DNA of 64,000 nucleotides from Candidatus Gastranaerophilales bacterium (GTDB lineage Bacteria; Cyanobacteriota; Vampirovibrionia; Gastranaerophilales; Gastranaerophilaceae), in contig CALVEO010000004.1 in assembly GCA_944326615.1 (NCBI GenBank), positions 1 to 64,000 on the forward strand, given 5' to 3'. A model generated the notes under the pieces. The model saw only the letters and a list, made by a program, of their open reading frames with translations, was not told where the DNA came from and made no database searches. Within the stretch, counting starts at the first letter, position 1. The number at the start of each line of letters is the position of its first letter. This document shows positions 26,907 through 53,549 of the stretch, in pieces. Made by a program: the position numbers and the translations under genes.

Positions 26907-28202
26907 TTATTCATAAATTTCACATTTACCATCCTTTATGTAATCCATGTTTTTTTCATAAATAACATGAGCCGTACAGGCATCACCTCTGTTTATTGAT
27001 TGTTCATCATCTAATACATCTGAAAGCCCGCCTGGTAAAATTCTATCTTTATAAACAGCAAATGTATGCAAGTCAATACCCATCTTATTAGGCGGAGCAT
27101 CTCCGTTAACATCTACTCTTAATAAAGCACAGGCGGCATAAGCATTACCACAGGTATTTGAGAAAGTTAGAGAAGAAATATACATACCGTCATTTAAAAT
27201 TGCATTGGAATACCATGAATTAGTGTTGAGATTAATTCTGAAACCGGCAGAACCAATAGAGCCGTATACTATATCCGGAAAACATCCCTTATCATTTTTA
27301 CCGCAAAATTTTATAACGTTCATATATGGCAATATATAATACAAAAAATCTTCTTCATTGCTGGAGGATGATTCATAAGCCACTAAATTCCATCCGGAAA
27401 TATCACCGTTATCCTGCTTTGCTCTTATATAAGCATTACTTATAACAGTATAAAATTTATTAAGCTTAGATACATATTCCTGAATTTTATACTTTTGAAT
27501 TAAAGAAGGCAACGTCATGGCAGCCACAACACCGATAATTCCTAAGGTTATCAAGACTTCAGCTAATGTAAACGCGCAGCGTTTACAAGGTGAATAAGAG
27601 AATAGGTGAATAGGTGAATAAGTTCGTTTCGAGGAATTAGTGTCATGCTGAACTTGTTTCAGCATCTTATAATTACTTACTTCCTCTCCTGTGGGAGAGG
27701 GTTGGGGTGAGGGCTGATTATTATATATAATTTGATTGTAGTTACTTATTCCTTCTCCCCTGTGCGGCAGCGTAGCCGCTGCACCCGACACCTGTGTTTT
27801 GCATAAATTTTCCCTGTCATTACGAGGAGAAGGCGAAGCATTCGACGTAGTAATCTCATTTATATTACATAAATTAGGAGATTGCGACGCTCCATTCTGT
27901 CGCTCGCAATGACAGTTATTTGATTGCAGATTGGTTTTACAGGAACATGCTCCCTCCCTCGGGTGAGGGCTGGGGAGAGGGGCATTATCAGAAGAACAGA
28001 AGTTCGGAGGGCAGGAAGGCTGGCTGGTTACAGAAGTTATTTTAGTGCGCAGCACCGATAATAGCTTGACCTCTTGACATCCGATCCTCCGGCAGCCGAA
28101 TAGCTTACACTCATACCTTCTCCTACCTTCTAAAATGCCTGCCTTCTTGACATCCTGGCCTCTGTCAGCTAAAAATGCCCCCCCCCCGACACTCTTGGAC
28201 AA
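26907..28202 (-). CDS. pilin-like protein with repeat-derived 5' extension and G10 tract
   Basis: The C-terminal 220 residues are a pilin-like protein: CAFTLAEVLITLGIIGVVAA (prepilin-type N-terminus), then an alpha/beta domain with Cys pairs and YEKNMDYIKDGKC at the end, like the 14601 protein. Upstream the frame stays open for about 210 codons through repeat region C and the MITE-like element. Two starts are credible. One is a local ATG at 27665, giving 252 residues. The other is an ATG at 28216 with an excellent AAGGAG site (MKKFNCPRVSGGG...), which is out of frame by one base at a run of ten G's and meets a stop after 15 codons; eleven or eight G's would join it to the full frame. The listed start is the frame's first TTG. 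Phase variation or decay of the 5' end are both possible. Confidence 0.6.
   Translation of the reverse strand: MSKSVGGGAFLADRGQDVKKAGILEGRRRYECKLFGCRRIGCQEVKLLSVLRTKITSVTSQPSCPPNFCSSDNAPLPSPHPREGACSCKTNLQSNNCHCERQNGASQSPNLCNINEITTSNASPSPRNDRENLCKTQVSGAAATLPHRGEGISNYNQIIYNNQPSPQPSPTGEEVSNYKMLKQVQHDTNSSKRTYSPIHLFSYSPCKRCAFTLAEVLITLGIIGVVAAMTLPSLIQKYKIQEYVSKLNKFYTVISNAYIRAKQDNGDISGWNLVAYESSSSNEEDFLYYILPYMNVIKFCGKNDKGCFPDIVYGSIGSAGFRINLNTNSWYSNAILNDGMYISSLTFSNTCGNAYAACALLRVDVNGDAPPNKMGIDLHTFAVYKDRILPGGLSDVLDDEQSINRGDACTAHVIYEKNMDYIKDGKCEIYE
27580..28177. repeat. composite interspersed-repeat region C inside the pilin-like frame
   Basis: From the pilin side: tandem AATAGGTGA units near 27600, an ATGCTGAA/TTTCAGCAT hairpin at 27652-27672, CTCTCC-type palindromes, AGCCGCTGCACCCGACACC, the MITE-like element, and a 27930-28090 segment that is the inverse of 21700-21840. 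The whole region translates without stops in the pilin frame. Confidence 0.8.
27815..27914. mobile_element. MITE-like palindromic element, copy 3
   Basis: 100 bp bounded by TGTCATTACGAG and CTCGCAATGACA, same orientation as copy 1 and about 90 percent alike by eye. Unlike copies 1 and 2, it lies within an open reading frame that ends in a pilin domain. Confidence 0.75.
28178..28187 (-). repeat. G10 homopolymer at the start of a pilin-like gene (candidate phase switch)
   Basis: Ten G's on the coding strand, from about codon 10 after the ATG at 28216. In the present state the ATG frame stops at TAG just after the tract. Adding one G or removing two restores the frame to the pilin domain. Homopolymeric G/C tracts of this length are otherwise very rare in this AT-rich DNA; the only other one I see is at 49429-49438. 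Confidence 0.7.
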
Positions 28203-28216
28203 TTAAATTTTTTCAT

Positions 28217-28850
28217 AATTCGCTCCTTATTATTAATCTTCTTAAACTGATATATAAAGTATACATTATTTTTGTTAAAATTTCAAGATGTATCAAAGGG
28301 GCGTACTCTCCCTATCTCTTTGTGAGAGGGAGCAGCTCTTGACGAGCCTGCGAGTCATTAGAGATGCGGGTGAGGGTCTTATTAGAGGTCAGGAAGGCAA
28401 GCTATTATCAGTAATAAGGCTTTGGATAATTATATCAAGCATATTTATAAATGTAATTAGCCTGACCTCTTGCCTTCTGTTCATCTGTTCTTCTGATTGT
28501 ACCCCACCCTAACCCTCCCCATCCGGGGAGGGGAACGTAGCCGTTCCTTCCGACATTTGAGTTTTGCATGAACTTGTTCTGTTATTGTAAGAAAATGTGA
28601 CGTGTGGAACGGCACGCTTCTTCGACAATTACGTCAATATTTCAAGCAAAACAGATGCGAGGGATAAAAAGTTAAGTAAATTTGTCCCGAATTACGAAAA
28701 TACCCGAGTGCGTTGACCAAACAAAGCGATATTACGAATGAAATTTACAATATTTGAACATTCATTAAAGCGACTTATGCATAGTCGTAAGTTATAATGG
28801 GTGGAGCGGCTACGCTCCCAAAAATTAATTTTTCCTTAAGAAAATTAATT
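28217..28850. repeat. composite interspersed-repeat region D and groES upstream DNA
   Basis: No gene. About 28296-28400 (TTTGTGAGAGGGAGCAGC onward) is a near-identical inverted copy of 36200-36285. About 28530-28620 (GGAACGTAGCCGTTCC, TTGAGTTTTGCATGAACTTG) is an inverted copy of 36295-36390. From 28640 to 28800 the sequence is unique; I see short hairpins (CGACT/AGTCG near 28770; GGAGCG/CGCTCC near 28803) but no gene. A perfect 13-bp AT-only inverted repeat AAAAATTAATTTT spans about 28819-28854. Confidence 0.7.
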
Positions 28851-40000: not shown

Positions 40001-40798
40001 ATGAAGGTTGTTATTTTAGCCGGCGGATTAGGAACACGCTTAAGTGAAGAAACAAAATTAATGCCAAAACCTATGGTTGAAATCGGCGGAAAGCCTATTT
40101 TATGGCATATTATGAAAATATATTCACACTTTGGTTTTAATGAATTTGTTATACTTAGTGGCTACAAATCCCACGTAATCAAGGATTATTTCGTGCATTA
40201 TTACCAGCAATATTCAGATATTACCGTAGATATGCTCAACAATTCTGTAGAAATCCATCGTATAAAAACTGAACCTTGGAAAGTTACAATACTTTATACG
40301 GGCCAAGATACAATGACCGGCGGACGTATAAAAAAAGCGCAGGAATACATTGGCAGAGAACCTTTCCTATTAACATATGGCGATGGGGTTTCTGATATAA
40401 ATATAAAAGATTTAATTGAATTTCATAAAAAATCAGGGAAACTTATAACTTTAACAGCAGTACAGCCAACCGGACGTTTTGGTGCTCTTGTTATTCAAGA
40501 TAATAGTTTGATTACTTCATTTATGGAAAAACCCAAAGGTGATACATCCTGGATAAATGGAGGGTTCTTTGTTTGTGAGCCTGGTGTATTCGATTATATA
40601 CCGGAAGGAGATGATGTTATTTTTGAACGAACACCATTAGAAAACCTAGCAAAAGCTCATGAGCTTAATGCATACAAACATGACGGTTTCTGGCGGCCAA
40701 TGGATACGCTTAAAGACAAAAATGATTTAACAAAAATGTGGGAATCAGGTGATTGCCCCTGGGCTGTATGGCAGCCTAGTGAGGTATCACATGTTTAA
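40001..40798 (+). CDS. rfbF: glucose-1-phosphate cytidylyltransferase
   Basis: 265-residue nucleotidyltransferase that makes CDP-glucose from glucose 1-phosphate and CTP, the first step to all CDP-3,6-dideoxyhexoses. MKVVILAGGLGTRLSEET opens the Rossmann-like fold, with PKPMVEIGGKPILWHIMKIY, LTYGDGVSDIN (metal Asp), FMEKPKGDTSWINGGFF and the C-terminal YKHDGFWRPMDTLKDK, all diagnostic of RfbF rather than dTDP- or UDP-glucose synthases. First gene of a plus-strand operon of twelve genes; its stop overlaps the rfbG start. Confidence 0.95.
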   Translation: MKVVILAGGLGTRLSEETKLMPKPMVEIGGKPILWHIMKIYSHFGFNEFVILSGYKSHVIKDYFVHYYQQYSDITVDMLNNSVEIHRIKTEPWKVTILYTGQDTMTGGRIKKAQEYIGREPFLLTYGDGVSDINIKDLIEFHKKSGKLITLTAVQPTGRFGALVIQDNSLITSFMEKPKGDTSWINGGFFVCEPGVFDYIPEGDDVIFERTPLENLAKAHELNAYKHDGFWRPMDTLKDKNDLTKMWESGDCPWAVWQPSEVSHV

Positions 40799-41873
40799 TA
40801 GTATTTATCATGGTAAAAAAATTTTTATTACAGGCCACACCGGATTTAAGGGGAGCTGGCTTTCGATTTGGCTGCAAATACTGGGAGCACAAGTCTGCGG
40901 ATATTCTCTTGAACCTGACACAGAACCTTCGATGTTTAAGGCTTTAAGAATCGGAGATAAAATATCTAAATCAATAACCGGCAACATACTTGATGAAAAA
41001 CTACTGGAAAAATCAATGTTGGAATTTGAACCTGATATTGTATTTCATCTTGCAGCCCAGCCATTAGTAAGGCTTTCATATTTAGAACCTGTATTAACAT
41101 ATAAAACAAATGTTATCGGAACATTAAATGTTTTAGAGGCAGCAAGAAAATGCCCTTCTGTAAAAGCTTTTGTTAATGTTACCACAGACAAATGCTATGA
41201 AAATAAAGAGATAAATCGCGGCTATCGTGAAGACGAACCAATGGGCGGTTATGATATGTATTCTTCTTCAAAAGGATGTGTTGAAATTATGTCTTCATCA
41301 TATAGACGTTCTTTTTTACAAGACGGATATGCACTGGCAACAGCGCGTGCAGGAAACGTTATCGGCGGTGGAGACTGGGCACAGGACAGATTAATACCTG
41401 ATTGTATAAGAGCTATAAATAAAGGCGAAAAAATTGAGATAAGAAATCCTGCAGCAGTACGTCCATGGCAGCATGTTCTTGAACCATTGTCAGGATATCT
41501 GCTATTAGGTCAAAAATTGCTTGAATACGGAAGACATTTTGCAGACGGGTTTAACTTTGGTCCGCAAGAAAACAGCGTTTTAAAAGTTTTGGAAGTAGCA
41601 GAAAAAATTATCGAATTATACGGCACAGGTGAAATTCTTATTCACAAATGTGATGATATGCATGAGGCAAATCTATTAATGCTAAATATAGAAAAAGCAG
41701 AAAAAGTGCTTGGATGGATACCATCTTACAGTGCAAATGAAGCTATTGAAAAAACTGTAGAATGGTACAAACATTTTTACAAACAAGATACAAATATGTA
41801 CGAATTTACAATAAATCAAATTAGAGAATACGAGGGAAGCATAAAATGGAGCAAGAATTACGCGATAAGGTAA
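40791..41873 (+). CDS. rfbG: CDP-glucose 4,6-dehydratase
   Basis: 360-residue SDR enzyme turning CDP-glucose into CDP-4-keto-6-deoxyglucose with bound NAD. GHTGFKGSWLSIWLQ is the RfbG form of the GxxGxxG motif; VTTDKCYEN and MYSSSKGCVE include the catalytic Asp-Lys and YxxxK (Tyr-Ser-Ser-Ser-Lys); ARAGNVIGGGDWA is typical of the family. The start at 40791 overlaps the rfbF stop and has GAGGT upstream. It overlaps rfbH by 28 nt. Product is the substrate of RfbH. Confidence 0.95.
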   Translation: MFNSIYHGKKIFITGHTGFKGSWLSIWLQILGAQVCGYSLEPDTEPSMFKALRIGDKISKSITGNILDEKLLEKSMLEFEPDIVFHLAAQPLVRLSYLEPVLTYKTNVIGTLNVLEAARKCPSVKAFVNVTTDKCYENKEINRGYREDEPMGGYDMYSSSKGCVEIMSSSYRRSFLQDGYALATARAGNVIGGGDWAQDRLIPDCIRAINKGEKIEIRNPAAVRPWQHVLEPLSGYLLLGQKLLEYGRHFADGFNFGPQENSVLKVLEVAEKIIELYGTGEILIHKCDDMHEANLLMLNIEKAEKVLGWIPSYSANEAIEKTVEWYKHFYKQDTNMYEFTINQIREYEGSIKWSKNYAIR

Positions 41874-43204
41874 AATCAGCAGCAAAAGAATATTATCAAT
41901 CGGTTTACGGAGAAAAACGGAAATTCGATTATATCCCGCCAAGCGGAAAACTTTTGGGCGAAGAAGAATTGATGAACATGATTGATGCTTCTTTGGATAT
42001 GTGGCTTACAGCGGGCAGATTTAACAGGGAATTTGAGAGCAAATTTGCTGAATATTTAGGCGTAAAATTTGCACTTTCAACAAATTCCGGCTCAAGCGCA
42101 AATTTACTTGCATTTTCAGCACTAACTTCCCACAAATTAGGAGAGCGAGCACTTAAAAAAGGAGATGAAGTTATCTCAGTTGCAGCAGGATTTCCTACAA
42201 CAATAAACCCTATTATTCAACATGGAATGGTTCCGGTTTTCATTGACTGCGAAATTGGCACTTATAATATCAACGCTGATAAAATTGAAGAGGCAATAAG
42301 TCCCAAAACAAAAGCAATTTTTCTTGCCCACACACTTGGCAACAGTTATGACTTAGACAAAATAATGAAAATTGCAGAAAAATATAATCTTTGGGTTATT
42401 GAGGACAGCTGTGATGCTTTAGGAGGCGAATATAAAGGGCGTAAACTTGGAACAATCGGTCATATCGGAACATTTAGTTTTTATCCTGCCCATCACCTCA
42501 CAATGGGTGAAGGCGGGGCAGTTATAACCAATGACCCTCAATTATACAAAATTATTATGTCATTCCGCGATTGGGGCAGAGATTGCTGCTGTCCGCCCGG
42601 ACAAGATGGAGTTTGCGGGAAACGTTTCAGCCGCCAGTTAGGGAACTTGCCATACGGATATGATCACAAATATACTTATTCCCACATTGGTTTTAACTTA
42701 AAAATTACCGACTGGCAGGCAGCGTTAGGCTGTTCACAAATTGATAAACTCGACAGCTTTTTAGCAATCCGCCGGCATAATGCTGCAATTTTAACAGAAA
42801 AACTTGCAGATCTGAAAGATTATTTAATTCTGCCGGAAGTCAGAGAAGGTGTAAAACCTTCCTGGTTCGGGTATTTAATTTCGGTAAAAGAAGATGCTCC
42901 ATTTACCAAACAGCAAATGGTTGAATATCTTGAAGAACATAAAATCGGTACCCGACAGCTATTTGCAGGTAATATTTTAAGACAGCCGATGATTGTTGAT
43001 AATGACGTTAATTTTAGAATAGGAAATTCTCCGCTTATTAATTCAAAAGACTTAACAGAAGAACACTATAAACTTCTGCCTGCAACAGAATTTATAATGA
43101 ATAATACATTCTGGGTTGGTACATTCCCTGCGCTTGGAGAACATGAAATAAACCGTATCTGTGAAACAATACACAATGCAATAGATGAATTGAGAGGCAA
43201 ATAA
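41846..43204 (+). CDS. rfbH: CDP-4-keto-6-deoxyglucose 3-dehydrase (E1), RfbH
   Basis: 452-residue PMP-dependent dehydrase that removes the C3 hydroxyl to give CDP-4-keto-3,6-dideoxyglucose together with a reductase (E3). It has the DegT fold but the Schiff-base Lys is replaced by His: FSFYPAHHLTMGEGG, His216/His217. The cysteine-rich loop RDCCCPPGQDGVCGKRFSRQ is the [2Fe-2S]-associated segment of RfbH/DdhC/AscC. The usual E3 flavoprotein (DdhD/AscD) is absent from the window; a 4Fe-4S protein gene overlaps instead by 1 nt at 43204. Confidence 0.95.
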   Translation: MEQELRDKVKSAAKEYYQSVYGEKRKFDYIPPSGKLLGEEELMNMIDASLDMWLTAGRFNREFESKFAEYLGVKFALSTNSGSSANLLAFSALTSHKLGERALKKGDEVISVAAGFPTTINPIIQHGMVPVFIDCEIGTYNINADKIEEAISPKTKAIFLAHTLGNSYDLDKIMKIAEKYNLWVIEDSCDALGGEYKGRKLGTIGHIGTFSFYPAHHLTMGEGGAVITNDPQLYKIIMSFRDWGRDCCCPPGQDGVCGKRFSRQLGNLPYGYDHKYTYSHIGFNLKITDWQAALGCSQIDKLDSFLAIRRHNAAILTEKLADLKDYLILPEVREGVKPSWFGYLISVKEDAPFTKQQMVEYLEEHKIGTRQLFAGNILRQPMIVDNDVNFRIGNSPLINSKDLTEEHYKLLPATEFIMNNTFWVGTFPALGEHEINRICETIHNAIDELRGK

Positions 43205-44178
43205 TGTTATTAGATTTATTTAAAAATAAAAAATGTTTTAAACTTGTCTGCGGGGCAGGCAATGAAGATGCTGTTGAAGTTGAAAAATTGGTTACTTTAT
43301 ATTCAAAAGCAGGATGTAATTTTTTTGATTTATGCGCAAAACCTGAAATAGTTGATGCCGCAAAACGCGGCTTGAAAAGAGCCGGAATTACAGAAGACAG
43401 ATACCTCTGCTGCTCTGTCGGCATAAAGGGAGATCCCCATGTCAGCAAAGCTAAAATTAATGAAGATTTATGCATAGGATGTTCAAAATGTACAAAAGAA
43501 TGTCTTCAAAATGCTTTAGTTCCACTGACAAATAAAAATGTTTATCAGGTTAATACTGTTAAATGTATAGGTTGCGGGCATTGCGCCAGTGTTTGTCCAA
43601 AACAAGCGATTGAAATGACAAGTGAATTTAAAAATTTAAAAGAAGTTCTACCCCCGCTTATTGAAAAAGGTATTGATTGTATTGAATTTCATGCACTTGG
43701 TGAAGATGAAAATGAAGTAGATGAAAAATGGGCAGATATTAATGAATTGTATAACGGACCGTTAAGCATCTGTATTGACCGTTCGAAACTTGGGAATGAA
43801 CGTGTTTTAAGCAGAATTAACAGAATGCTTGAGAAAAGACAGCCTTATACAACAATTATTCAGGCAGATGGATGTCCGATGAGCGGAGGTAAAGATGATT
43901 TTAAAACAACTTTACAAACCGTTGCTATGGCTGAAATTTTTCAAAATGCGAATTTGCCTGTCTATCTTTTATTATCAGGCGGTACCAATTCAAAATCTAC
44001 TGAATTAGCAAAATTATGCGGTATTAACGCAGGCGGTGTTGCAATAGGTTCTTTTGCAAGAAAAATAGTCAGAGAATATATTGACAGAAACGATTTTTTG
44101 GAAAATGAAGAAGCTTTCAATAAAGCATTGAAAATTGCGAAACAATTGGTTGATGTTTCTATGGAGAATATGAAATAA
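43204..44178 (+). CDS. LdpA-like 4Fe-4S protein, possible electron donor for RfbH
   Basis: 324 residues. Residues 1-75 resemble the N-terminus of cyanobacterial LdpA (CFKLVCGAGNEDAVEVEK, AGCNFFDLCAKPEIVDAA). Two ferredoxin-type clusters follow: CIGCSKCTKEC (about 92-102) and CIGCGHCASVC (about 122-132). The C-terminal half (about 145-320) is a TIM-barrel-like domain matching LdpA_C. LdpA is a redox-sensing clock-input protein in Synechococcus. Here it lies directly after rfbH in a sugar operon, so I infer that it supplies electrons to RfbH in place of the missing E3. No flavin motif is seen. Confidence 0.75.
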   Translation: MLLDLFKNKKCFKLVCGAGNEDAVEVEKLVTLYSKAGCNFFDLCAKPEIVDAAKRGLKRAGITEDRYLCCSVGIKGDPHVSKAKINEDLCIGCSKCTKECLQNALVPLTNKNVYQVNTVKCIGCGHCASVCPKQAIEMTSEFKNLKEVLPPLIEKGIDCIEFHALGEDENEVDEKWADINELYNGPLSICIDRSKLGNERVLSRINRMLEKRQPYTTIIQADGCPMSGGKDDFKTTLQTVAMAEIFQNANLPVYLLLSGGTNSKSTELAKLCGINAGGVAIGSFARKIVREYIDRNDFLENEEAFNKALKIAKQLVDVSMENMK

Positions 44179-44936
44179 TGATTAAATTAAAAACCTCAAA
44201 TTGGGAAATTGAAAATATAGAGGCAATTTTATTTGATAAAGACGGCACCTTTATAGATTCACATATTTACTGGGGAGAGATAATCAAACGCAGAGTAAAC
44301 GCCGTAATGAATTATTATAACATTGATAAAAAACTATTTGAAGAATTATGTCTTTCTTTAGGCTTGGACTGCAATAAAAACTGCTTAATTCCTGAAGGAC
44401 CTATTGCCCTTTTAGCACGAGAAGCAGTAATTAACTCGCTGCTTGCAAAACTAAAAGAATATAATATCCAAGCAGAATTAAATACTATTGAACAAATATT
44501 TAAAGATGTTCATAAAGCATTCCTGCCGGAAATTTATAATTATATAAAATTAATTGACGACGCAAAAGATATGTTTCAAAGATTACAAAAGCACAACGTG
44601 AAACTTGCTGTTGTAACCTCTGATATGAGAGCTAATACAGAAGCGATTTTAGAACATCTTAAACTTAGAGAATACTTTGATATCGTAATCGGCAAAGATG
44701 ATTGCACAAAAGCTAAAAAAACAGGAGAACCTGCATTAATCGCACTTGAAAAACTGCAAGCTAATCCGGAATTTACAATATCTGTAGGTGATGCATCTAT
44801 GGATTACGAAATGGCAAAAAATGCAAAATTAAAAGGTTCTATTCTTGTAGCAACAGGACAAACCCCGTTTGAAGACTTAAAAAAACTTACTGATACTGTT
44901 GTTAGCAGCTTAAAGGAGGTAAAAATTGAAAACTAA
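44178..44936 (+). CDS. HAD-superfamily phosphatase
   Basis: 252 residues. Motif I LFDKDGTFID (nucleophile Asp20, acid Asp22), motif II VVTSDMRA, a Lys in VIGKDDCTKAKKTGEPA and motif IV VGDASMDYEMA are all visible, with a helical cap between about 30 and 115, as in phosphoglycolate phosphatase-type (subclass I) enzymes. The substrate is probably a phosphorylated sugar or aldehyde made in the same pathway, because the gene is enclosed by overlapping genes of the deoxysugar operon. It overlaps the aldolase gene by 11 nt. Confidence 0.88.
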   Translation: MIKLKTSNWEIENIEAILFDKDGTFIDSHIYWGEIIKRRVNAVMNYYNIDKKLFEELCLSLGLDCNKNCLIPEGPIALLAREAVINSLLAKLKEYNIQAELNTIEQIFKDVHKAFLPEIYNYIKLIDDAKDMFQRLQKHNVKLAVVTSDMRANTEAILEHLKLREYFDIVIGKDDCTKAKKTGEPALIALEKLQANPEFTISVGDASMDYEMAKNAKLKGSILVATGQTPFEDLKKLTDTVVSSLKEVKIEN

Positions 44937-46635
44937 ACTTTTAGATTGTACAATACGCGACGGAGGACATTTAAACGGTTGGAATTTTACCCCTGAATGT
45001 GTTAGAGCTTCTTATTATGCAGCAGTCAAAGCAGGAGCAGATTATTTTGAAATAGGTTACAGATTTAAAAATCCAAAACCTGAATGGGGTCTATTTGCAA
45101 AATGTGATGACAATATGCTGCTCAATTTAATAACGCCAAATCCAAAATGTAAAATATCACTTATGATTGATGCAGGCAAGTCTGATGCAGATGAATTTAG
45201 GGAATGTAATTCAAAACTTACACCAATTTCTTTAGTGCGCGTTGCAACTTATCCGCAAAAACTTGAAGAAGCATTCGATTTGTGCGAAAAATTACACAAA
45301 AAAGGATACAATTTATTTTTGAATTTAATGGCAATATCTGAATTTAAAGAAGAGGATTTTGACAAAATAAAACACTGGCCTAATAAAAGTATACTTGATG
45401 CTATCTGTTTTGCTGACAGTTTTGGCTCCTTTATTCCTGATGATATTGAAAAATATTATAACAAATTAAAATCTCTTGGATTTAAAAATATAAGTTTTCA
45501 TTCGCATAATAACCTGCAGCTTGCTTTCGCAAATACATTAAAGGCAATCGATTTAAATTTCTACTCTGTTGATGCTTCAATCTACGGCATGGGCAGAGGT
45601 TCCGGCAACCTGCCAGCAGAAATTATTACAGGGTATCTCAGTAAAACCGGCAACCAGAAATATAATCCTGTTGCTTATATTGATGTAATTGAACGTTTTT
45701 ATTTAAAATTTACACAAACAACCCCCTGGGGCTATCGTATTCAATCGTTAATCGGCGGATTAAAAAATATTCATCCTTATTACGTTAACGGATTATATGA
45801 AAAGAAATCATTCACTATTAATGAAATCTGGACAGCCGCTGATCTTGTAAAAAAATACGCTCCGATATCATTCAGCAGTGATAATCTTAATAATGTACTG
45901 TCTGATAAATTTGTAAACTACGATGATATTAAAATTAAAGATAAATTAGCTGTTCTACCTGAAAAAGATGCATTTTCACAGGGAAATGTCGAATTTAAAA
46001 ATTTATATAAAGACAGAAATTTCATGATTATTGCAAACGGTTCTTCAATAAAAGAAAATCAGGAAGTTATCAAACGTTTTATAAGAGAAAAAGACTGTGT
46101 TGTAATCGGAACAAACTTTTTAGAAAATTTATATGATACAGATTTTCATTGTTTTGTAAATAGAAAACGGTTTTTAAAATATATAAATACCGTACACTCA
46201 ACACTGCTGTTGCCTTCTTTTTTCGGCAAAGAACTTGTAAAAGAGAATACAACAAATAAAGTAATGTATTTTGATACTAAACTTTCAGACAACATTACAG
46301 ACAATTTATTTGAAAATGACACCCACATATATAAGTATCTGAATGTAGCAATCTCTGCGATTTATTGTGCATATCAGATGGGGGCAAAAGCAATTTATGC
46401 CGTTGGAATTGACGGTTTCGGAAAAAATGGAGAAAAATTTGAATATTTCTATAAAGAAGATGATTTCTATAACAATAAAGAATATTTGATGAAAGCTTAT
46501 CAGGAATTGTCAGAAAGTTTAGATATAATAAATAAATTTTTGGAAAGTAAATCAATACCATTTTCTATCTTAACCAAAACTTCACACGACAAATATTTTA
46601 GTGATGTATTAATGGAGAAAGCATATGTCAATTAA
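44926..46635 (+). CDS. two-domain protein: DRE-TIM metallo-aldolase plus DUF115-like C-terminal domain
   Basis: 569 residues. Residues 1-300 form an HMGL-like barrel: LLDCTIRDGGHLNGW has the DRE-type Arg-Asp metal motif, SFHSHNNLQLAFAN the His-x-His metal ligands, and DASIYGMGRGSGNLPAE the end of the barrel, most like 4-hydroxy-2-oxovalerate aldolases, which join pyruvate and an aldehyde. No acetaldehyde dehydrogenase partner is present. From about residue 365 (NFMIIANGSSIKEN) a second, Rossmann-like domain follows (VVIGTNFLENLYDTDFHCF, AIYAVGIDGFGKNG), like DUF115/MptE-type domains of surface-glycan clusters. Start codon TTG at 44926 following AAGGAGG. The pairing of domains is unusual. Confidence 0.75.
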   Translation: MKTKLLDCTIRDGGHLNGWNFTPECVRASYYAAVKAGADYFEIGYRFKNPKPEWGLFAKCDDNMLLNLITPNPKCKISLMIDAGKSDADEFRECNSKLTPISLVRVATYPQKLEEAFDLCEKLHKKGYNLFLNLMAISEFKEEDFDKIKHWPNKSILDAICFADSFGSFIPDDIEKYYNKLKSLGFKNISFHSHNNLQLAFANTLKAIDLNFYSVDASIYGMGRGSGNLPAEIITGYLSKTGNQKYNPVAYIDVIERFYLKFTQTTPWGYRIQSLIGGLKNIHPYYVNGLYEKKSFTINEIWTAADLVKKYAPISFSSDNLNNVLSDKFVNYDDIKIKDKLAVLPEKDAFSQGNVEFKNLYKDRNFMIIANGSSIKENQEVIKRFIREKDCVVIGTNFLENLYDTDFHCFVNRKRFLKYINTVHSTLLLPSFFGKELVKENTTNKVMYFDTKLSDNITDNLFENDTHIYKYLNVAISAIYCAYQMGAKAIYAVGIDGFGKNGEKFEYFYKEDDFYNNKEYLMKAYQELSESLDIINKFLESKSIPFSILTKTSHDKYFSDVLMEKAYVN

Positions 46636-47377
46636 AGAAAAATTAAAAAATAGAGAACAAATGTTTGGAACATGGTGTATAATTCCTTCACCTGAAGTTG
46701 TTAATATATTATGCAAGTCAGGTTTAGATTTTGTACTTGTAGATTTTGAACATAGTCCGGTAAATTTCGAAACAGCACAAAAAATGATTATGGCAGCCCA
46801 TGCAGAAAATAAATACGCAGTTTCAAGAGTTGGCAAACTTGATGATGTTGAAATTTTAAGAAGCTTGGACATTGCATCTGACGGTATAATTATTCCTCAT
46901 ATTGAAAGTCTTGATGATGTCAATCGTTGCCTTGAATTCATAAAATATTATCCTCAGGGTAATCGTGGCTACTCGCCTTACACCAGAGCCGGAGGATATT
47001 GCGTAAATGCCGATTATACACAAAATGCAAATAAAAATATATTATTTGGTATTATTATTGAAAGTAAAAAAGGTATTGAAAACCTTGATGAAATTTTATC
47101 AAGTCCTGATTTGGATTTAGTGTATCTTGGAGCTTATGACATTTCAATATCTCTTGGTCTGGCAGGCAAAATTAATCATCCAAAAGTTTTAGAAGTTTTG
47201 AACTTATGCATTGAAAAAATTACAGCCGCCGGCAAAATTGTTGGAGCAATGTATCATACACAGGAAGATTACGAAACATTTACTCAAAAAAATGTTAATT
47301 TTTTGGTGTATAAAGTTGATTCTTTAATAATCAATGAAGGACTGGAGCAGGTAAGAACAGTAAAAGGTGTAAAATAA
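46625..47377 (+). CDS. HpcH/HpaI-family aldolase
   Basis: 250-residue class II pyruvate aldolase. GTWCIIPSPEVVNILCKSGLD and FVLVDFEHSP (catalytic His region), SRVGKLDDVEILRSLDIASD, GIIIPHIES, a metal Glu in IIIESKKG and LVYLGAYDISISLGL with the metal Asp are all typical. Members cleave or form 4-hydroxy-2-oxo acids such as 2-keto-3-deoxy-L-rhamnonate. A second aldolase of another fold lies directly upstream, with 11 nt overlap. I infer that both make branched or extended oxo-acids for the downstream ThDP enzyme; a catabolic role is unlikely in this operon. Confidence 0.85.
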   Translation: MSIKEKLKNREQMFGTWCIIPSPEVVNILCKSGLDFVLVDFEHSPVNFETAQKMIMAAHAENKYAVSRVGKLDDVEILRSLDIASDGIIIPHIESLDDVNRCLEFIKYYPQGNRGYSPYTRAGGYCVNADYTQNANKNILFGIIIESKKGIENLDEILSSPDLDLVYLGAYDISISLGLAGKINHPKVLEVLNLCIEKITAAGKIVGAMYHTQEDYETFTQKNVNFLVYKVDSLIINEGLEQVRTVKGVK

Positions 47378-49146
47378 TGAATGTATCTGAATATATAATG
47401 GAGAGAATTGCACAAGAGGGTGTAGAAAAAGTTTTTATGGTATCAGGCGGAGGAGGGATGTTCCTAATTGAAGCCTTAGGTAATAATCCCAAATTACAAC
47501 ATGTTTGTAATCATCATGAACAAGCTGTAGTTATGGCTGCCGAAGGTTATCAGAGAGCAACCAGAAACCTGGGGGTTGCACTTGTTACGACAGGACCGGC
47601 TGCGACCAATACTTTAACAGGTATATGCTGTGCCTGGAATGATTCTATACCATTACTAATTCTTTCAGGGCAAGCTAAAACTCCAACATTGATAGGCGAT
47701 AGCGGAATGCGTCAAAGAGGAACACATGAAGTAAATATTTCCCAGATTGTTAAACCTGTCACAAAATATTCTGTGTGTATAAAAGATGTAAATGAAGTTC
47801 GTTATCACCTTGAAAAAGCATTATATCTTGCTAAAAATGGCCGTCCTGGACCTGTTTTACTGGATATCCCGCTTGATATTCAACAGGCAGAAATTAATCC
47901 TAATGCACAAAAAGGATTTACTCCGGAAAAAATTGAATACGATGATAAAATTGATAATGTTTTTTCAATGTTAAAAAATGCTAAACGCCCTGTTATTTTA
48001 GCAGGTTATGGTCTAAAATTATCAAAAACAGAACAATACATGCTTGATATATCGGAAAAATATAATATCCCTGTAGTTACTCCAAAAAATGGTATGGATA
48101 TGATTTGGGAAACACATCCAATGTTAGCAGGCAGAATTGGGATAAACGGACAAAGGGCCGGCAATCTTACCATACAAAATTCTGATTTTATATTAATTTT
48201 AGGTGCAAGACTACCACTGGTTACAGTTGGATATGAAACCGATTTGTTTGCCCCTCATGCAAAAAAAGTTATTGTAGATTGCGATATGGCTCAGCTTAAA
48301 CATTGCTGGATAAAAACAGATTTATCAGTGTATGCAGATTTAAAAGATTTTATGCCAAAATTTGCAAAAAAATTAGAAGATGAAAAATTTTCTTATGATA
48401 GTAATTTTTGGGTAAATAAAGTTCAAGGTTATAGAAAAAAATATCCTACAGTAACTGATAAAGTCCGCAAACAAAATAAGTATGTTGATTCATATTTTTT
48501 CTTTGATACCTTGTCTGATTATATGACAAAAGATGATGTATTAGTTACAGATCAGGGGGCAGCTTTTTATTCTTTAACTACAGCATTTAAAGTAAAAAAA
48601 GGACAATTAGCATTTACAAACGGCGGTTTTTCACCTATGGGTTATGGATTGCCTGCATCCATAGGATGCTGCTTTGCGCCCGGAGTTAGAAAAGTTGTAT
48701 CTGTAAACGGCGATGGCGGCTTACAAATGAATTTACAGGAATTGCAGACGATTATTCATCATAATCTTGATATAAAAGTTTTTGTTTTTAATAATGACGG
48801 CTACTTGAGTATTAAACATACACAAACGAATTTCTTTAACGGACATTTAGTCGGTTCAAATCCGGCAAGCGGGGTATCTTGTCCGGATAGTATTAAATTA
48901 GGAAAAGCATACGGATTTAAAACATTTAGAATAAGAAACCACAAAGAAACAGCAAAAATAATTGAAAAAGTTATGAAAACTACAGGCCCAGTTCTTGTAG
49001 AGGTAATGCTTGATCCAATGCAGCCATATTACCCTAAAGTAACTTCACAAAAATTGCCTGATGGGACGTTTAAATCCCAGCCACTGGATAATATGTGGCC
49101 GTTTTTGCCCAAAGAGGAAATGGCTGAAAACAGGAGAATGAATTAA
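47377..49146 (+). CDS. ThDP-dependent acetolactate-synthase-like enzyme, candidate sugar-branching enzyme (YerE-like)
   Basis: 589 residues with the three domains of AHAS/POX enzymes: Pyr domain with the catalytic Glu in CNHHEQAVVMAAEGYQR (about residue 49), a central domain (about 190-330), and the PP domain with the ThDP motif NGDGGLQMNLQE...NNDG (about 443-472). In Yersinia, YerE of this family transfers a two-carbon unit from pyruvate onto CDP-4-keto-3,6-dideoxyglucose, giving yersiniose. rfbF, rfbG and rfbH just upstream should make exactly that acceptor, which is why I prefer this role over branched-chain amino acid synthesis. No regulatory IlvN subunit gene is present. Overlaps the HpcH gene by 1 nt. 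Confidence 0.78.
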   Translation: MNVSEYIMERIAQEGVEKVFMVSGGGGMFLIEALGNNPKLQHVCNHHEQAVVMAAEGYQRATRNLGVALVTTGPAATNTLTGICCAWNDSIPLLILSGQAKTPTLIGDSGMRQRGTHEVNISQIVKPVTKYSVCIKDVNEVRYHLEKALYLAKNGRPGPVLLDIPLDIQQAEINPNAQKGFTPEKIEYDDKIDNVFSMLKNAKRPVILAGYGLKLSKTEQYMLDISEKYNIPVVTPKNGMDMIWETHPMLAGRIGINGQRAGNLTIQNSDFILILGARLPLVTVGYETDLFAPHAKKVIVDCDMAQLKHCWIKTDLSVYADLKDFMPKFAKKLEDEKFSYDSNFWVNKVQGYRKKYPTVTDKVRKQNKYVDSYFFFDTLSDYMTKDDVLVTDQGAAFYSLTTAFKVKKGQLAFTNGGFSPMGYGLPASIGCCFAPGVRKVVSVNGDGGLQMNLQELQTIIHHNLDIKVFVFNNDGYLSIKHTQTNFFNGHLVGSNPASGVSCPDSIKLGKAYGFKTFRIRNHKETAKIIEKVMKTTGPVLVEVMLDPMQPYYPKVTSQKLPDGTFKSQPLDNMWPFLPKEEMAENRRMN

Positions 49147-49147
49147 A

Positions 49148-51379
49148 GTGTTTAAAGAAATAAAATGCAATGTAATAGATTATATAAACAAAAATTTTAG
49201 TGTAATATTTTATATCATAACTTCTATATTTATTTTTACTATAGTAAAAATATTGATTAGTTCAATTTTACCAGAAAATAATGTAAAAGTTTTTACTCAT
49301 TACAATTTCTTATTTTTTACAGATAAATTACAAGAAATAATAAACTATATAATGGGAGCAGGAGTATTTTTCTTAATGTTTATCCTATATCCGATTTATA
49401 AAAAATTCTCAGAATTCTCCACAAAATGCCCCCCCCCCGAAACACTTTTTTTAAATTTTATTATTATTTTGATATTAACACAAATAAAAACCTCAAGTAT
49501 AATTAAAGCATCCATTTTATCTCTTTTTGCAATAATATTATATGTCTCTTGTTTTTATTTCGCAAAAACAAATTATTTGGGAAAAATTTTTTTAATGTTA
49601 AGTTTAATACTAAAAAAATTTAAAACAAATTATATTATTAATACTATTTTCTGTATAAGTATTTTCATGTTTATATTTCAAATCTTTCCTTTTGTTTTTC
49701 AGGGACTAAAAGTAATGAACGAATTCATAGATATTCCTGAACAGACAATTATAGAAGATAAAATAATTAGCAATATAGACTATGAAATGTCATCAAAATT
49801 TAAAGATTATACAGAAATAAAAAAAGAAGAATCCGAAATAACGCAATATAATAAAATCAACAATTTTGAAATACATTGGAAAACCTTATCTCGCTGGGCA
49901 CTATACCATCATTCACATATGCTTATACCAATGCTTGAATTAGAATTAGGGAAAGATAGAACACAAATTTTTTCACAATATAGCTTATTTAATACCAATT
50001 TATTGCGTTATGCTCTTAAATATACAGGTGGTATAAATATTCAAACTTATTTTAAACTATACTATTCTTTTTACTATTTGTATTATGGACTTTTAATATT
50101 TTTTGCCTACAAAATTTTCAGAAGCAAAAATTATACATTAGCATTATTATTATCAATTATAATCTCAATTAATATATATAATTTCTACTATTTTTATTTG
50201 GCTCCCGGATGCAATCCTATGAGGCACTGTCTGGATATAATTGTAATCTTTCTGTTATATAAATATTATACCAATTATAAGATTAAATATTTTGTGTCAT
50301 CTGTGATACTTTCACTATTAGCGACATTACTCAATGCTAATATGGGTTTATTTCTATATTTAGCGGCACTACCAACTTTTTGGTATAAAAATATTATCGT
50401 AGGAGAAAGAAAAAATTATTTAAGTGAAATAATAGTATTAGTCTGTTCTCTTTTTATTCTGCCTTTTATTTATCATACTTCAACTATTGGTATTGATTAC
50501 ACAAAAGAATACTTTATTGCTGGAATGCTTGGCTGGCATTTACCTACTGCACTTATGTATAAAATTTTCGCTGCAATCATGGCCTGTTATATATTTTTTA
50601 CTGTAATAAAAGTCTATAACAAATTTTCTAATTTAAAATTTATTGCATTCTTTTCATTCATATACGTTCAAGGTTTATTATTATATTTTGTATGGGGTTC
50701 AGACACCAAACATTTTATGGTAATAATGCCTGTAATTTCATTTATGTTTTTGATGATATTTAAACTAATTATAGATACATACTTAAACAATAAATTTCTA
50801 AATTATAGAAATATAATAACAAATATCTCAATAGGATGCCTTTTTATAATTGCATGTATCGGTTTTTCCAAATATGTTGACGATTATCAAAGCTATTGCA
50901 ATATTTTTAAACATCATATAACTTACAATTGGAATTTAAAAAATGCAAAATTCACATCAACAATGAATCCGGCATATTTCACAGATTCTATTGATTTAAT
51001 AAAAAAATATTCTAAAAATCAAAATGGTATATATATTATTTCAAAATATGATTATTTTGTTCCATTTCTAGCTGATAAATACAGTTTAATGCCATATATA
51101 AATTTAGAATGGTATCTTGAATCTGATAAAGAAGTTAATAAAACAATTAACTTAATTAAAACAGAAAAACCAGAAATACTATTCACTGATAAGAATATAA
51201 TGTACAGAAATAATAAATGTTATTCAAATTATAATAGGAATTTTTCATATTTAAATCTTGAATGTCAAGCTCATAAAGATAGAATACATAAACTTGAAAA
51301 TATTTTCAATTCTGTTATAACTGATTATGAAGCTATTGACTCTAGTTATTTGTTGACAGTATATAGGAGGAAAAAATGA
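49148..51379 (+). CDS. large multi-pass membrane protein, probable GT-C-type sugar transferase, with C10 tract
   Basis: 743 residues starting with GTG at 49148, one nucleotide after the previous stop. About twelve or more hydrophobic helices up to residue 590, then an extracytoplasmic domain of about 150 residues. This is the layout of GT-C enzymes using lipid-linked sugars, and the downstream GtrB- and GtrA-like genes support it; no conclusive motif is seen. A run of ten C's at 49429-49438 codes for Cys-Pro-Pro-Pro at residues 94-97 and keeps the frame; gain or loss of one base would end translation early. Codon use is more AT-rich than in the neighbouring enzymes, suggesting a separate origin. 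Confidence 0.65.
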   Translation: MFKEIKCNVIDYINKNFSVIFYIITSIFIFTIVKILISSILPENNVKVFTHYNFLFFTDKLQEIINYIMGAGVFFLMFILYPIYKKFSEFSTKCPPPETLFLNFIIILILTQIKTSSIIKASILSLFAIILYVSCFYFAKTNYLGKIFLMLSLILKKFKTNYIINTIFCISIFMFIFQIFPFVFQGLKVMNEFIDIPEQTIIEDKIISNIDYEMSSKFKDYTEIKKEESEITQYNKINNFEIHWKTLSRWALYHHSHMLIPMLELELGKDRTQIFSQYSLFNTNLLRYALKYTGGINIQTYFKLYYSFYYLYYGLLIFFAYKIFRSKNYTLALLLSIIISINIYNFYYFYLAPGCNPMRHCLDIIVIFLLYKYYTNYKIKYFVSSVILSLLATLLNANMGLFLYLAALPTFWYKNIIVGERKNYLSEIIVLVCSLFILPFIYHTSTIGIDYTKEYFIAGMLGWHLPTALMYKIFAAIMACYIFFTVIKVYNKFSNLKFIAFFSFIYVQGLLLYFVWGSDTKHFMVIMPVISFMFLMIFKLIIDTYLNNKFLNYRNIITNISIGCLFIIACIGFSKYVDDYQSYCNIFKHHITYNWNLKNAKFTSTMNPAYFTDSIDLIKKYSKNQNGIYIISKYDYFVPFLADKYSLMPYINLEWYLESDKEVNKTINLIKTEKPEILFTDKNIMYRNNKCYSNYNRNFSYLNLECQAHKDRIHKLENIFNSVITDYEAIDSSYLLTVYRRKK
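49429..49438 (+). repeat. C10 homopolymer inside the transferase gene (candidate phase switch)
   Basis: Ten C's in frame, the ON state. Flanks AAAATG on the left and GAAACACT on the right match those of the tract at 28178-28187 (AAAATG and GACACT). Confidence 0.7.
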
Positions 51380-52230
51380 ATATTCTATTAACTGGTAGTG
51401 GCGGATTTATAGGGAAAAATTTGAAAGCCTTTTTATCTCCACAGTATTTTTTATTGACTCCTCGGAGTTTTGAATTAAATCTAACAAATGAAAATGCTGT
51501 CAGAAATTACTTTCATATTAATGATATTGATTTTATTATTCATTGTGGTTCAATAGGAGGTTATAGAAATCAAAAAGATAAAGATACAACATTTGAAGAT
51601 AATATTGCGATGGTCAATAATATATTAAAATTCAAAAAAAATTCCTGTCGAGTAATCCTGTTTGGTTCTGGTGCAATGTATGATAAATCCAGACCTTTGC
51701 ACAAAGTTGCCGAAAATGAAATAGGGAAATTTATTCCTAAGGATTTGTACGGGAAATCAAAACTTGAAATTGCAAAAATAATTGATAAAAGAGATGATGT
51801 TGTTTGTTTAAATATTTTCGGATGCTATGGGCAATACGAAAAAGACTCTCGATTTCCGACTTATGCTATAAAGCAAAAATTAAGAGGAGAAAAAATCTCT
51901 ATAAACCAAAATGTTATATTTGATTATATATACATAAAAGATTTATGTAAAATAATTAAATATTTTATTAGCCATAAACCGCAAAATAAAATTATAAATG
52001 TTACTCCGGACAAAAGTATTTCCCTTTTGGAAATTGCCAATATTATTAACAAAATTGACAATCCGCGAGTTGAGATTGAAATTTTAACAAAGGGGATGAA
52101 CAATGAATACACAGGCTCAAATTTATTATTAAAAAGTGAAATTCCAAATTTTCAATTTACTGATTACGAAAAAGGTTTAAAAGAATTATTTGATATTATT
52201 AAAAGGATAGAACAAAATGAAAAAAATTAG
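51376..52230 (+). CDS. NAD-dependent epimerase/dehydratase-family SDR
   Basis: 284-residue extended SDR. GSGGFIGKNL is the Gly-rich nucleotide-binding motif; LFGSGAMYDK and LYGKSKLEIAK give the catalytic Ser/Tyr and Lys (YxxxK, Tyr-Gly-Lys-Ser-Lys); DYIYIKDLCKII matches GDP-mannose/fucose-type SDRs. I infer reduction of the branched keto-sugar made by the ThDP enzyme, as YerF does after YerE, though an epimerase is also possible. Starts within the last four bases of the membrane protein gene; overlaps the next gene. Confidence 0.87.
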   Translation: MNILLTGSGGFIGKNLKAFLSPQYFLLTPRSFELNLTNENAVRNYFHINDIDFIIHCGSIGGYRNQKDKDTTFEDNIAMVNNILKFKKNSCRVILFGSGAMYDKSRPLHKVAENEIGKFIPKDLYGKSKLEIAKIIDKRDDVVCLNIFGCYGQYEKDSRFPTYAIKQKLRGEKISINQNVIFDYIYIKDLCKIIKYFISHKPQNKIINVTPDKSISLLEIANIINKIDNPRVEIEILTKGMNNEYTGSNLLLKSEIPNFQFTDYEKGLKELFDIIKRIEQNEKN

Positions 52231-53152
52231 TATAGTTACAAGTTGTTATAATGAAGAAGGCAATGTTGCAATTTTGTATGAAAAAGTCAAAGAACAAATG
52301 GAAAAGCTTCCCTATGAATGGGAACTTATATATGAAGATAATGCTTCAAAAGACGGTACTGTTAAAATATTAAGGGAATTATGTGCTAAAGATAAAAGAG
52401 TAAAAGTTTTATTAAATACTAGAAATTTTGGCTGCACACGCTCTGCACATAATGTTATGCTAAGTGCATATGGGGATGCCGTTATTTTTATGGTATCCGA
52501 CTTGCAGGATCCGCCGGAATTGTTACCCAAATTTGTTGATAAATGGCAAGCCGGCTATAAGGTCGTTTTGGGGCAGAAAAATAAATCTAAAGAAAATCCT
52601 TTAATGTTTGCAGTGAGAAAATTATTTTACAAAATAATGCACACAATTGTAGATGATAACACAGAACAACTGAATCAATGTACAGGTTTTGGATTATATG
52701 ATAAACAGGTTATAGATATTTTCAGAAATATAGATGATCCTTATCCTTACTTAAGAGGATTAATCTGTGAAGTAGGGTATGAAACAGCTCTTATTCAATT
52801 CACACAACCCAAACGGAAAAGTGGTTTCTCCAAAAATAAATTTTATAATTTATATGATTACGCAATGCTTGGGATTGTTAAACATTCAAGAGTACCACTA
52901 CGTATGGTCGCATTTATAGGGATATTATGTTCTATGATAAGTTTGTTTGTTGCATTTATATATTTTTGCGCAAAACTGATGTTCTGGAACAGCTTTGAAC
53001 TGGGCAAAGCACCTGTAATAATAGGCTTATTTTTCTTTTCTTCCGTTCAGCTTTTCTTCCTTGGTTTGATTGGAGAATATGTAGGTGCAATTTATACCAG
53101 AATAGATAAAAAACCGTTAGTAGTAATTAAGGAAAAAATTAACTTTGATTAG
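52217..53152 (+). CDS. family 2 glycosyltransferase, GtrB/DPM1-like (polyprenyl-phosphate sugar synthase)
   Basis: 311 residues. GT-A domain: ISIVTSCYNEEGNVAILYEK, then IYEDNASKDGT and MVSDLQDPPELLPKF with the DXD-like Asp residues; RKLFYKIMHTI and FGLYDKQVID follow as in GtrB/DPM1 proteins. Two C-terminal membrane helices (about 225-250 and 265-290). Members move a sugar from a nucleotide donor to undecaprenyl phosphate at the cytoplasmic face. With the GtrA-type flippase next to it, this gives the standard lipid-linked sugar unit. Here the donor may be the CDP-branched sugar; that is inference. Confidence 0.9.
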   Translation: MKKISIVTSCYNEEGNVAILYEKVKEQMEKLPYEWELIYEDNASKDGTVKILRELCAKDKRVKVLLNTRNFGCTRSAHNVMLSAYGDAVIFMVSDLQDPPELLPKFVDKWQAGYKVVLGQKNKSKENPLMFAVRKLFYKIMHTIVDDNTEQLNQCTGFGLYDKQVIDIFRNIDDPYPYLRGLICEVGYETALIQFTQPKRKSGFSKNKFYNLYDYAMLGIVKHSRVPLRMVAFIGILCSMISLFVAFIYFCAKLMFWNSFELGKAPVIIGLFFFSSVQLFFLGLIGEYVGAIYTRIDKKPLVVIKEKINFD

Positions 53153-53549
53153 CGCACTTAAAACTTTATGTGAAAAGTTTAATATCAGCTGGAGATTTAT
53201 TAAATTCCTTTTTGTCGGAGTTTTAAATACGCTATTTGGTTATGCAGTATTTGCTTTATTTAATTTCTTAGGTTTACATTATACACTATCAACTTTATTA
53301 GCAACAGTTCTTGGAATTCTGTTTAATTTTAAAACAACAGGATGTATTGTATTCAAAAACGGAAATAATAAATTATTATTCAGATTTGTATTAGTTTATT
53401 CTTTCACTTATATATTTACGATTGCGGCTTTATACGGTTTTAGAACTTTAAATATGAACAACATGTATATAAATTATGCTCTATTACTGCCAGTTAATGC
53501 AATGCTTTCTTATATACTTATGAAAAAATTTGTATTTTTAACAACATAA
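53145..53549 (+). CDS. GtrA-family membrane protein (lipid-sugar flippase)
   Basis: 134 residues with four transmembrane helices: FIKFLFVGVLNTLFGYAVFA opens the GtrA domain, followed by TLLATVLGILFNF, FVLVYSFTYIFTIAALYGF and MLSYILMKKFVF. Translation starts at a TTG at 53145, overlapping the GT2 gene by 8 nt. GtrA proteins are thought to flip undecaprenyl-phosphate-sugar to the periplasm. Last gene of the operon; it converges on the helicase gene with 10 nt between stops. Confidence 0.92.
   Translation: MISALKTLCEKFNISWRFIKFLFVGVLNTLFGYAVFALFNFLGLHYTLSTLLATVLGILFNFKTTGCIVFKNGNNKLLFRFVLVYSFTYIFTIAALYGFRTLNMNNMYINYALLLPVNAMLSYILMKKFVFLTT

Follow-up and report, generated by a model that had tools for sequence, protein, structure and literature searches.

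We asked whether an in-frame tract of ten cytosines in a glycan gene cluster of a Candidatus Gastranaerophilales bacterium could act as a phase-variation switch. The tract lies in the 64,000-nt stretch of DNA that we analysed (hereafter the window). A sequence-only reading had proposed that it sits in a sugar transferase gene, that slippage by one base truncates the protein, and that glycan attachment is thereby phase variable. The tract was found exactly where it had been placed, at 49429–49438 (+ strand), in frame, within a GTG-started gene at 49148–51379 (+) that encodes a 743-aa multi-span membrane protein in which residues 94–97 read Cys94-Pro-Pro-Pro97. Truncation by a one-base slip was also borne out when length changes were simulated: the product shrank to 101 aa at C9 and to 119 aa at C11 (118 aa at C8, 742 aa at C7). 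C10 is thus the ON state of this gene, which is cut short at C9 and C11. A first-order model predicts ~0.006 runs of C or G of at least 10 nt in the window; we observed two, at 28178–28187 and 49429–49438, and runs of 7–9 nt were absent from it. The flanks of the run at 49429–49438, AAAATG-C10-GA, are those of the tract context found genome-wide. The transferase identity, on the other hand, was not supported. Searches of Pfam, NCBIfam and PDB gave zero family matches for the 743-aa protein, no relative was found among 33 congeners or in the genome contig collection searched, and the predicted fold (pLDDT 40) was set aside as uninformative. The label ‘sugar transferase’ comes from the position of the gene beside a GT2 and a GtrA gene.

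The neighbourhood of the tract gene is a glycan cluster, as had been claimed. Orthologues of RfbF, RfbG and RfbH, enzymes of CDP-deoxysugar synthesis, lie at 40001–43204 (+) and score over their cut-offs; an acetolactate-synthase-like TPP enzyme (47377–49146, +) directly precedes the tract gene, and a GT2 gene (GtrB-like by position) and the GtrA gene (52217–53549, +) close the cluster. The cluster is therefore predicted to make a CDP-linked deoxysugar. Within 40001–53549, the acetolactate-synthase-like enzyme is accompanied by two aldolase-like genes, and the sugar is possibly a branched (yersiniose-like) one. The cluster also contains a gene (43204–44178, +) that resembles the cyanobacterial circadian-clock protein LdpA at a score below the cut-off; its host is a non-photosynthetic relative of cyanobacteria.

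We then counted tracts beyond the window. In the whole genome, 69 C/G tracts reach 10 nt or more (64 measure exactly 10, the other five 11), while ~0.175 such tracts are expected by chance per 2 Mb; with 69 observed against ~0.2 expected, a chance origin of the tracts was ruled out. Within the genus, 25 of 33 genomes contain 20–169 tracts of exactly 10. Five congeners (G013, G021, G023, G027 and G029) have almost none. Genomes from other families of the order have few or no C10 tracts, except G050, which gave 42 overlapping C10 matches on one strand only, probably from one or a few very long C runs. When 84,980 species were scanned for GCTnnGAAnTG-C10-G, 88 stretches were retrieved; wherever a listed record bears the name of a lineage, this is Candidatus Gastranaerophilales or Melainabacteria, the others being ‘uncultured bacterium’. 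One record was titled ‘Fusobacterium sp. CAG:439’, with one tract region ~90–95% identical to a Gastranaerophilales record. The motif was absent from the viral contigs scanned. We considered a mobile motif or integration site as the origin of the tracts. Their flanks share only the loose GCTnnGAAnTG-C10-GA and they occur in both orientations relative to genes; we dropped this idea, as the positions of the tracts are better accounted for by start codon and frame. Loss of mismatch repair was rejected as their cause, since MutS and MutL were both found in this genome. Among the congeners, a MutL match is missing in G027 and G013 has only a weaker MutS-type match, both genomes being tract-poor, and G008 has no MutL match yet many tracts.

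Most tracts sit in pilin genes, and these genes, which the sequence-only reading had missed, are the main story. The majority of tracts lie inside genes that carry the prepilin motif FTLAEVLITLGIIGVVAAM, close to their start, pilin assignment here being by this N-terminal motif. Typically the tract lies 21–38 nt past an ATG with a good Shine-Dalgarno sequence, within the prepilin leader, and its sense-strand base is G in about half of the pilin genes and C in the other half. Peptides read from the ATG at length 10 end soon after the tract, e.g. MKKFNCPRVSGGGHF (window gene) and MMYREALNCPPPASIAA. The other tract of the window illustrates this anatomy. This tract (28178–28187, − strand), which reads G10 in the sense strand, belongs to a type IV pilin-like gene; it lies 29 nt past the ATG and is preceded by the Shine-Dalgarno sequence AAGGAG (28223–28228, −). 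Read from the ATG at G10, the gene yields a short OFF-state ORF (28169–28216, −) that encodes MKKFNCPRVSGGGHF and stops. The pilin-like reading frame (26907–28187, −) is one base off the ATG register at G10 and in register at G11. Between the tract and the pilin N-terminus lies a repeat-filled leader of ~200 codons (27585–28177, −) with 0 stops in the pilin frame versus 8 and 22 in the other two, followed by the prepilin N-terminal methylation motif (27513–27584, −; PF07963/TIGR02532), for which the gene scores over the TIGR02532 cut-off. PF07963 has 114 matches in this genome (G000), an extreme expansion for 1.96 Mb. The assembly ATPase PF00437 is present in 33 of 33 genomes, with 7 copies in this one.

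How constant is the frame offset? Of 181 pilin genes that have an SD-ATG and a tract of length 10, 173 were off frame by the identical one base (binomial 3e-71), in C- and G-sense tracts alike and in all three codon registers. The 181 genes come from this genome and many congeners, at loci picked by their tract, partly as C10 with one flank pattern. Many tract genes are paralogues, and overlapping loci had been dropped by flank identity only; we therefore also counted clusters of leader peptides, and 62 of 67 showed the same one-base offset (3e-24). Both binomial values presume independence and are to be taken as ‘far from chance’. At length 11 the picture was reversed: 16 of 22 pilin genes were in frame, versus 4 of 181 at length 10 (Fisher 1.5e-15), while one of the 22 kept the C10 offset and five were off in the other direction. 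Since the genes are mostly in frame at 11 and not at 10, it is the length that decides, not a compensated frame. Two C11 pilin genes of this genome have a start that could be scored, and both are in frame; L049, another C11 pilin-like gene, is open through the tract.

The part of the gene that is out of frame at length 10 is nonetheless kept open. In many genes of this genome the leader is 40–305 codons long, enlarged by dispersed repeats, and across 6280 leader codons the frame that runs from tract to pilin contains 5 stops, all in one gene, whereas the two alternative frames contain 390 and 541. An open frame downstream of the tract implies selection. Translation could in principle restart past the tract; among the 114 out-of-frame genes with short leaders, however, 107 lack an in-frame SD start and 66 lack any start codon, and with such a start in only 7 of 114 we rejected internal restart. 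Tract-free pilin genes have an ordinary in-frame SD-ATG in 12 of the 14 checked. With the pilin frame open and no alternative start, the frame must therefore change at the tract, at least sometimes. The repeats that carry leaders to 100–305 codons (window 27585–28177, −, and many loci such as L035, L051 and L060) are REP-like, dispersed and in frame with the pilin, and they bring Rickettsia palindromic elements to mind; prepilin peptidase would cut off the enlarged leader.

Length differences were seen between orthologues. We compared ten orthologous tracts from two species (~93% identity there); eight pairs were 10/10 and two were 10/11. In one of the latter (L128 versus L330), the G10 gene reads MKIFNIARGGGVS and stops (OFF), whereas the G11 gene reads MKMFSISRGGGQLKASS and on into the pilin (ON); bases adjoining the tract differ too. 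In the other (L116 versus L336), the added base gives an open frame whose start is a GTG that lacks a clear SD. The congener G002 (L065–L110), in which MutS and MutL are present, has tracts of 9–27 bases in mixed frames. Over 32 genomes we counted 1609 tracts of 10, whereas length 9 occurred 143 times and lengths of 11 or more at most 233 times, as read from assemblies, which give the modal tract length only. This genus-wide peak at 10 is uncomfortably close to the constant length expected of tracts that do not switch. If gain and loss of bases were unequal and a population sat close to their equilibrium, assemblies could show such a peak at 10.

We consider it probable (about 0.7) that the genus-wide G/C10 tracts are ON/OFF switches that work by replication slippage and are unusual in their scale, with pilins OFF and glycan genes ON by default. 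In a pilin gene with G10 or C10, translation from the ATG would halt soon past the tract, which is the OFF state, and the gain of one base would join the ATG with the pilin frame, which is the ON state; in a small group of glycan genes that includes the 743-aa gene, the product would be intact at 10 and truncated by a one-base slip. This proposal builds on the observed anatomy of the tracts, their constant offset, the open frame downstream and the one-base differences between orthologues. Tract length would then shift within populations, and a length of 11 would give a surface pilin. Replication slippage is favoured because orthologues occur as 10/11 pairs, because lengths spread in G002 and because tracts serve equally in C- and G-sense. 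The genes also carry the marks of known phase-variable loci: a G/C homopolymer of slippage-prone length within the reading frame, a one-base toggle between intact and truncated product, and surface-gene targets; a length difference between orthologues was found for the pilins only (2 of 10 pairs, 10/11). Against slippage count the tract lengths, which are far tighter than expected of a freely slipping tract, the five C11 pilin genes that are off in the other direction, and the presence of MutS and MutL, which should slow it.

The tightness of the lengths would suit a different reading, in which RNA polymerase or ribosomes slip on a fixed G10 or C10, so that a little pilin is made at a constant level, and selection fixes the length of the DNA. 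Such programmed frameshifting would agree with a length kept at 10 across species despite mismatch repair genes, with the identical one-base offset almost everywhere, and with a downstream frame that stays open though it is out of frame in the DNA. The C11 genes argue otherwise, as 16 of 22 are in frame and only 1 has the old offset, and G002 lengths vary freely. Moreover, tracts occur alike in C- and G-sense, over Pro or Gly codons and in all registers, as would be expected of strand-symmetric slippage on DNA more than of an effect of tRNAs or RNA hybrids. The tracts are also G/C runs, while the bacterial slippage patterns that have been surveyed are A/T runs (PMC1088944). With the offset kept in 1 of 22 C11 genes and runs of G/C, a frameshift or transcriptional slippage of fixed offset was rejected, and we regard programmed frameshifting in general as improbable.

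Two further readings take the OFF genes at other than face value. The dozens of out-of-frame pilin-like genes in each genome could be a silent archive, cassettes recombined into an expression site and not expressed in place. A precedent is the gonococcus, in which silent pilS recombines into pilE, and the common leader repeats could act as recombination homology. Each gene, however, has its own SD-ATG and a frame kept open from the tract, and in-frame C11 versions were found in place, which makes this very improbable. Alternatively, the real tracts could be mostly 11, in frame, and be called as 10 by error, since G/C homopolymers are difficult to read and all genomes examined are draft assemblies, many labelled MAG. 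Against such an artefact, assemblies of different sources agree, runs of 11, 13 and longer do get called, and the four glycan genes, intact in frame at C10 or G10, would break at 11. Of these readings we give the artefact the least credence.

The four glycan genes bring us back to the tract gene of the cluster. Glycosyltransferases are usual targets of phase variation, and the other non-pilin genes with an in-frame C10 or G10 in this genome are family-confirmed glycosyltransferases (GT1, GT2 and PMT_2). These three and the 743-aa gene are all ON at 10, the reverse of the pilins, so that the 743-aa gene, too, is most likely a phase-variable glycan gene. The proposal of phase-variable glycan attachment is thus supported in part, by truncation on slippage, by the glycan cluster, by the glycosyltransferases as fellow targets and by the one-base differences between pilin orthologues; the transferase identity is unsupported. 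On this proposal the gene would switch in fact, and its product would attach a sugar. For this gene only, its C10 might instead be a chance or inherited loop motif without biologically relevant switching: the gene has no orthologue and no seen length variation among the 33 congeners and the genome contigs, and hydrophobic segments lie on both sides of the tract, a position at which the protein may tolerate a stretch of Pro. C10 is, however, very improbable by chance in DNA of 33% GC, the flanks of 49429–49438 agree with the tract context, and its three non-pilin sister genes encode glycosyltransferases, so that we think this rather unlikely.

Extending slippage switching to whole cells, we tentatively suggest, at somewhat less than an even chance, a combinatorial pilus code. 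Each genome would hold dozens to >100 G/C10 switches of one design, their length held at 10 by gains and losses that balance with a bias; nearly all pilins would be OFF, a small random set at 11 would be ON in each cell, and the glycan genes would be wired oppositely.

Among known systems, the nearest relative in design, and one that speaks for the proposed switching, is the G-tract switch of sortase-dependent pili shown for bbr_0113 and bbr_1889 of Bifidobacterium breve UCC2003, in which one-base changes were detected by deep sequencing, ON alleles of one locus were enriched ~tenfold in mice, and pili became visible once the frames were joined (PMC9187656). That host, too, is a gut commensal, and its loci share a short ORF that bears the start, a G-tract, a main pilin ORF whose frame does not match that start in the reference genome, and a one-base change that gives ON. 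The differences are that two loci are concerned there versus dozens of genes per genome here, that ON arises there by loss of one G and here by gain of one, and that slippage was measured there whereas here it is proposed from assembled sequence. The LPXTG/sortase signature of the B. breve pili was not found here, the proteins being of the prepilin (type IV/type II secretion) class. The phasomes of Neisseria and Campylobacter represent the wider class. The Neisseria phasome comprises up to 54 loci in the gonococcus and 82 in N. lactamica (PMC5953494). Its pilC resembles the genes described here in having a G/C homopolymer inside the reading frame of a pilus gene, among many loci per genome. 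PilC is a pilus accessory protein, however, whereas here the tract is borne by prepilin-like subunits, with a near-uniform length of 10, a uniform default of OFF and up to 169 C10 tracts per genome. In Campylobacter jejuni, glycan genes are among the contingency targets. Strain NCTC11168 has 29 poly-G/poly-C contingency loci (PMC4965091). Their tracts of ~8–12 are like ours, but lengths and states there vary between colonies and hosts, whereas here the assembled length is nearly fixed and the pilin class dominates. The gtr O-antigen operons of Salmonella and phages likewise have a GT2 and a GtrA gene beside that of a membrane protein in a glycan cluster. Evidence of control by promoter methylation was not found here, and the switch would sit in coding sequence; the 743-aa protein, in the place of the third gtr gene, gave no recognisable family match and fits by its position beside the GT2 and GtrA genes.

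Our search, mostly of openly available literature, returned no paper linking Gastranaerophilales or Melainabacteria with phase variation. As far as the literature searched shows, the lineage, the number of genes of one design, the uniform default of OFF at one length and the reverse-wired glycan genes are new. For annotation, gene callers will render tract pilins wrongly as a short ORF and a headless ORF. Existing metagenome reads could put the model to the test, as to the pilins that are ON in a given host and any selection on them by phages or antibodies. Phase variation is known chiefly from pathogens. If our reading is true, a gut lineage that is common but uncultured, and that is related to cyanobacteria though non-photosynthetic, would rank among the organisms with the most phase-variable genes known, and its switches would act on pilus-like surface proteins and on their glycans.
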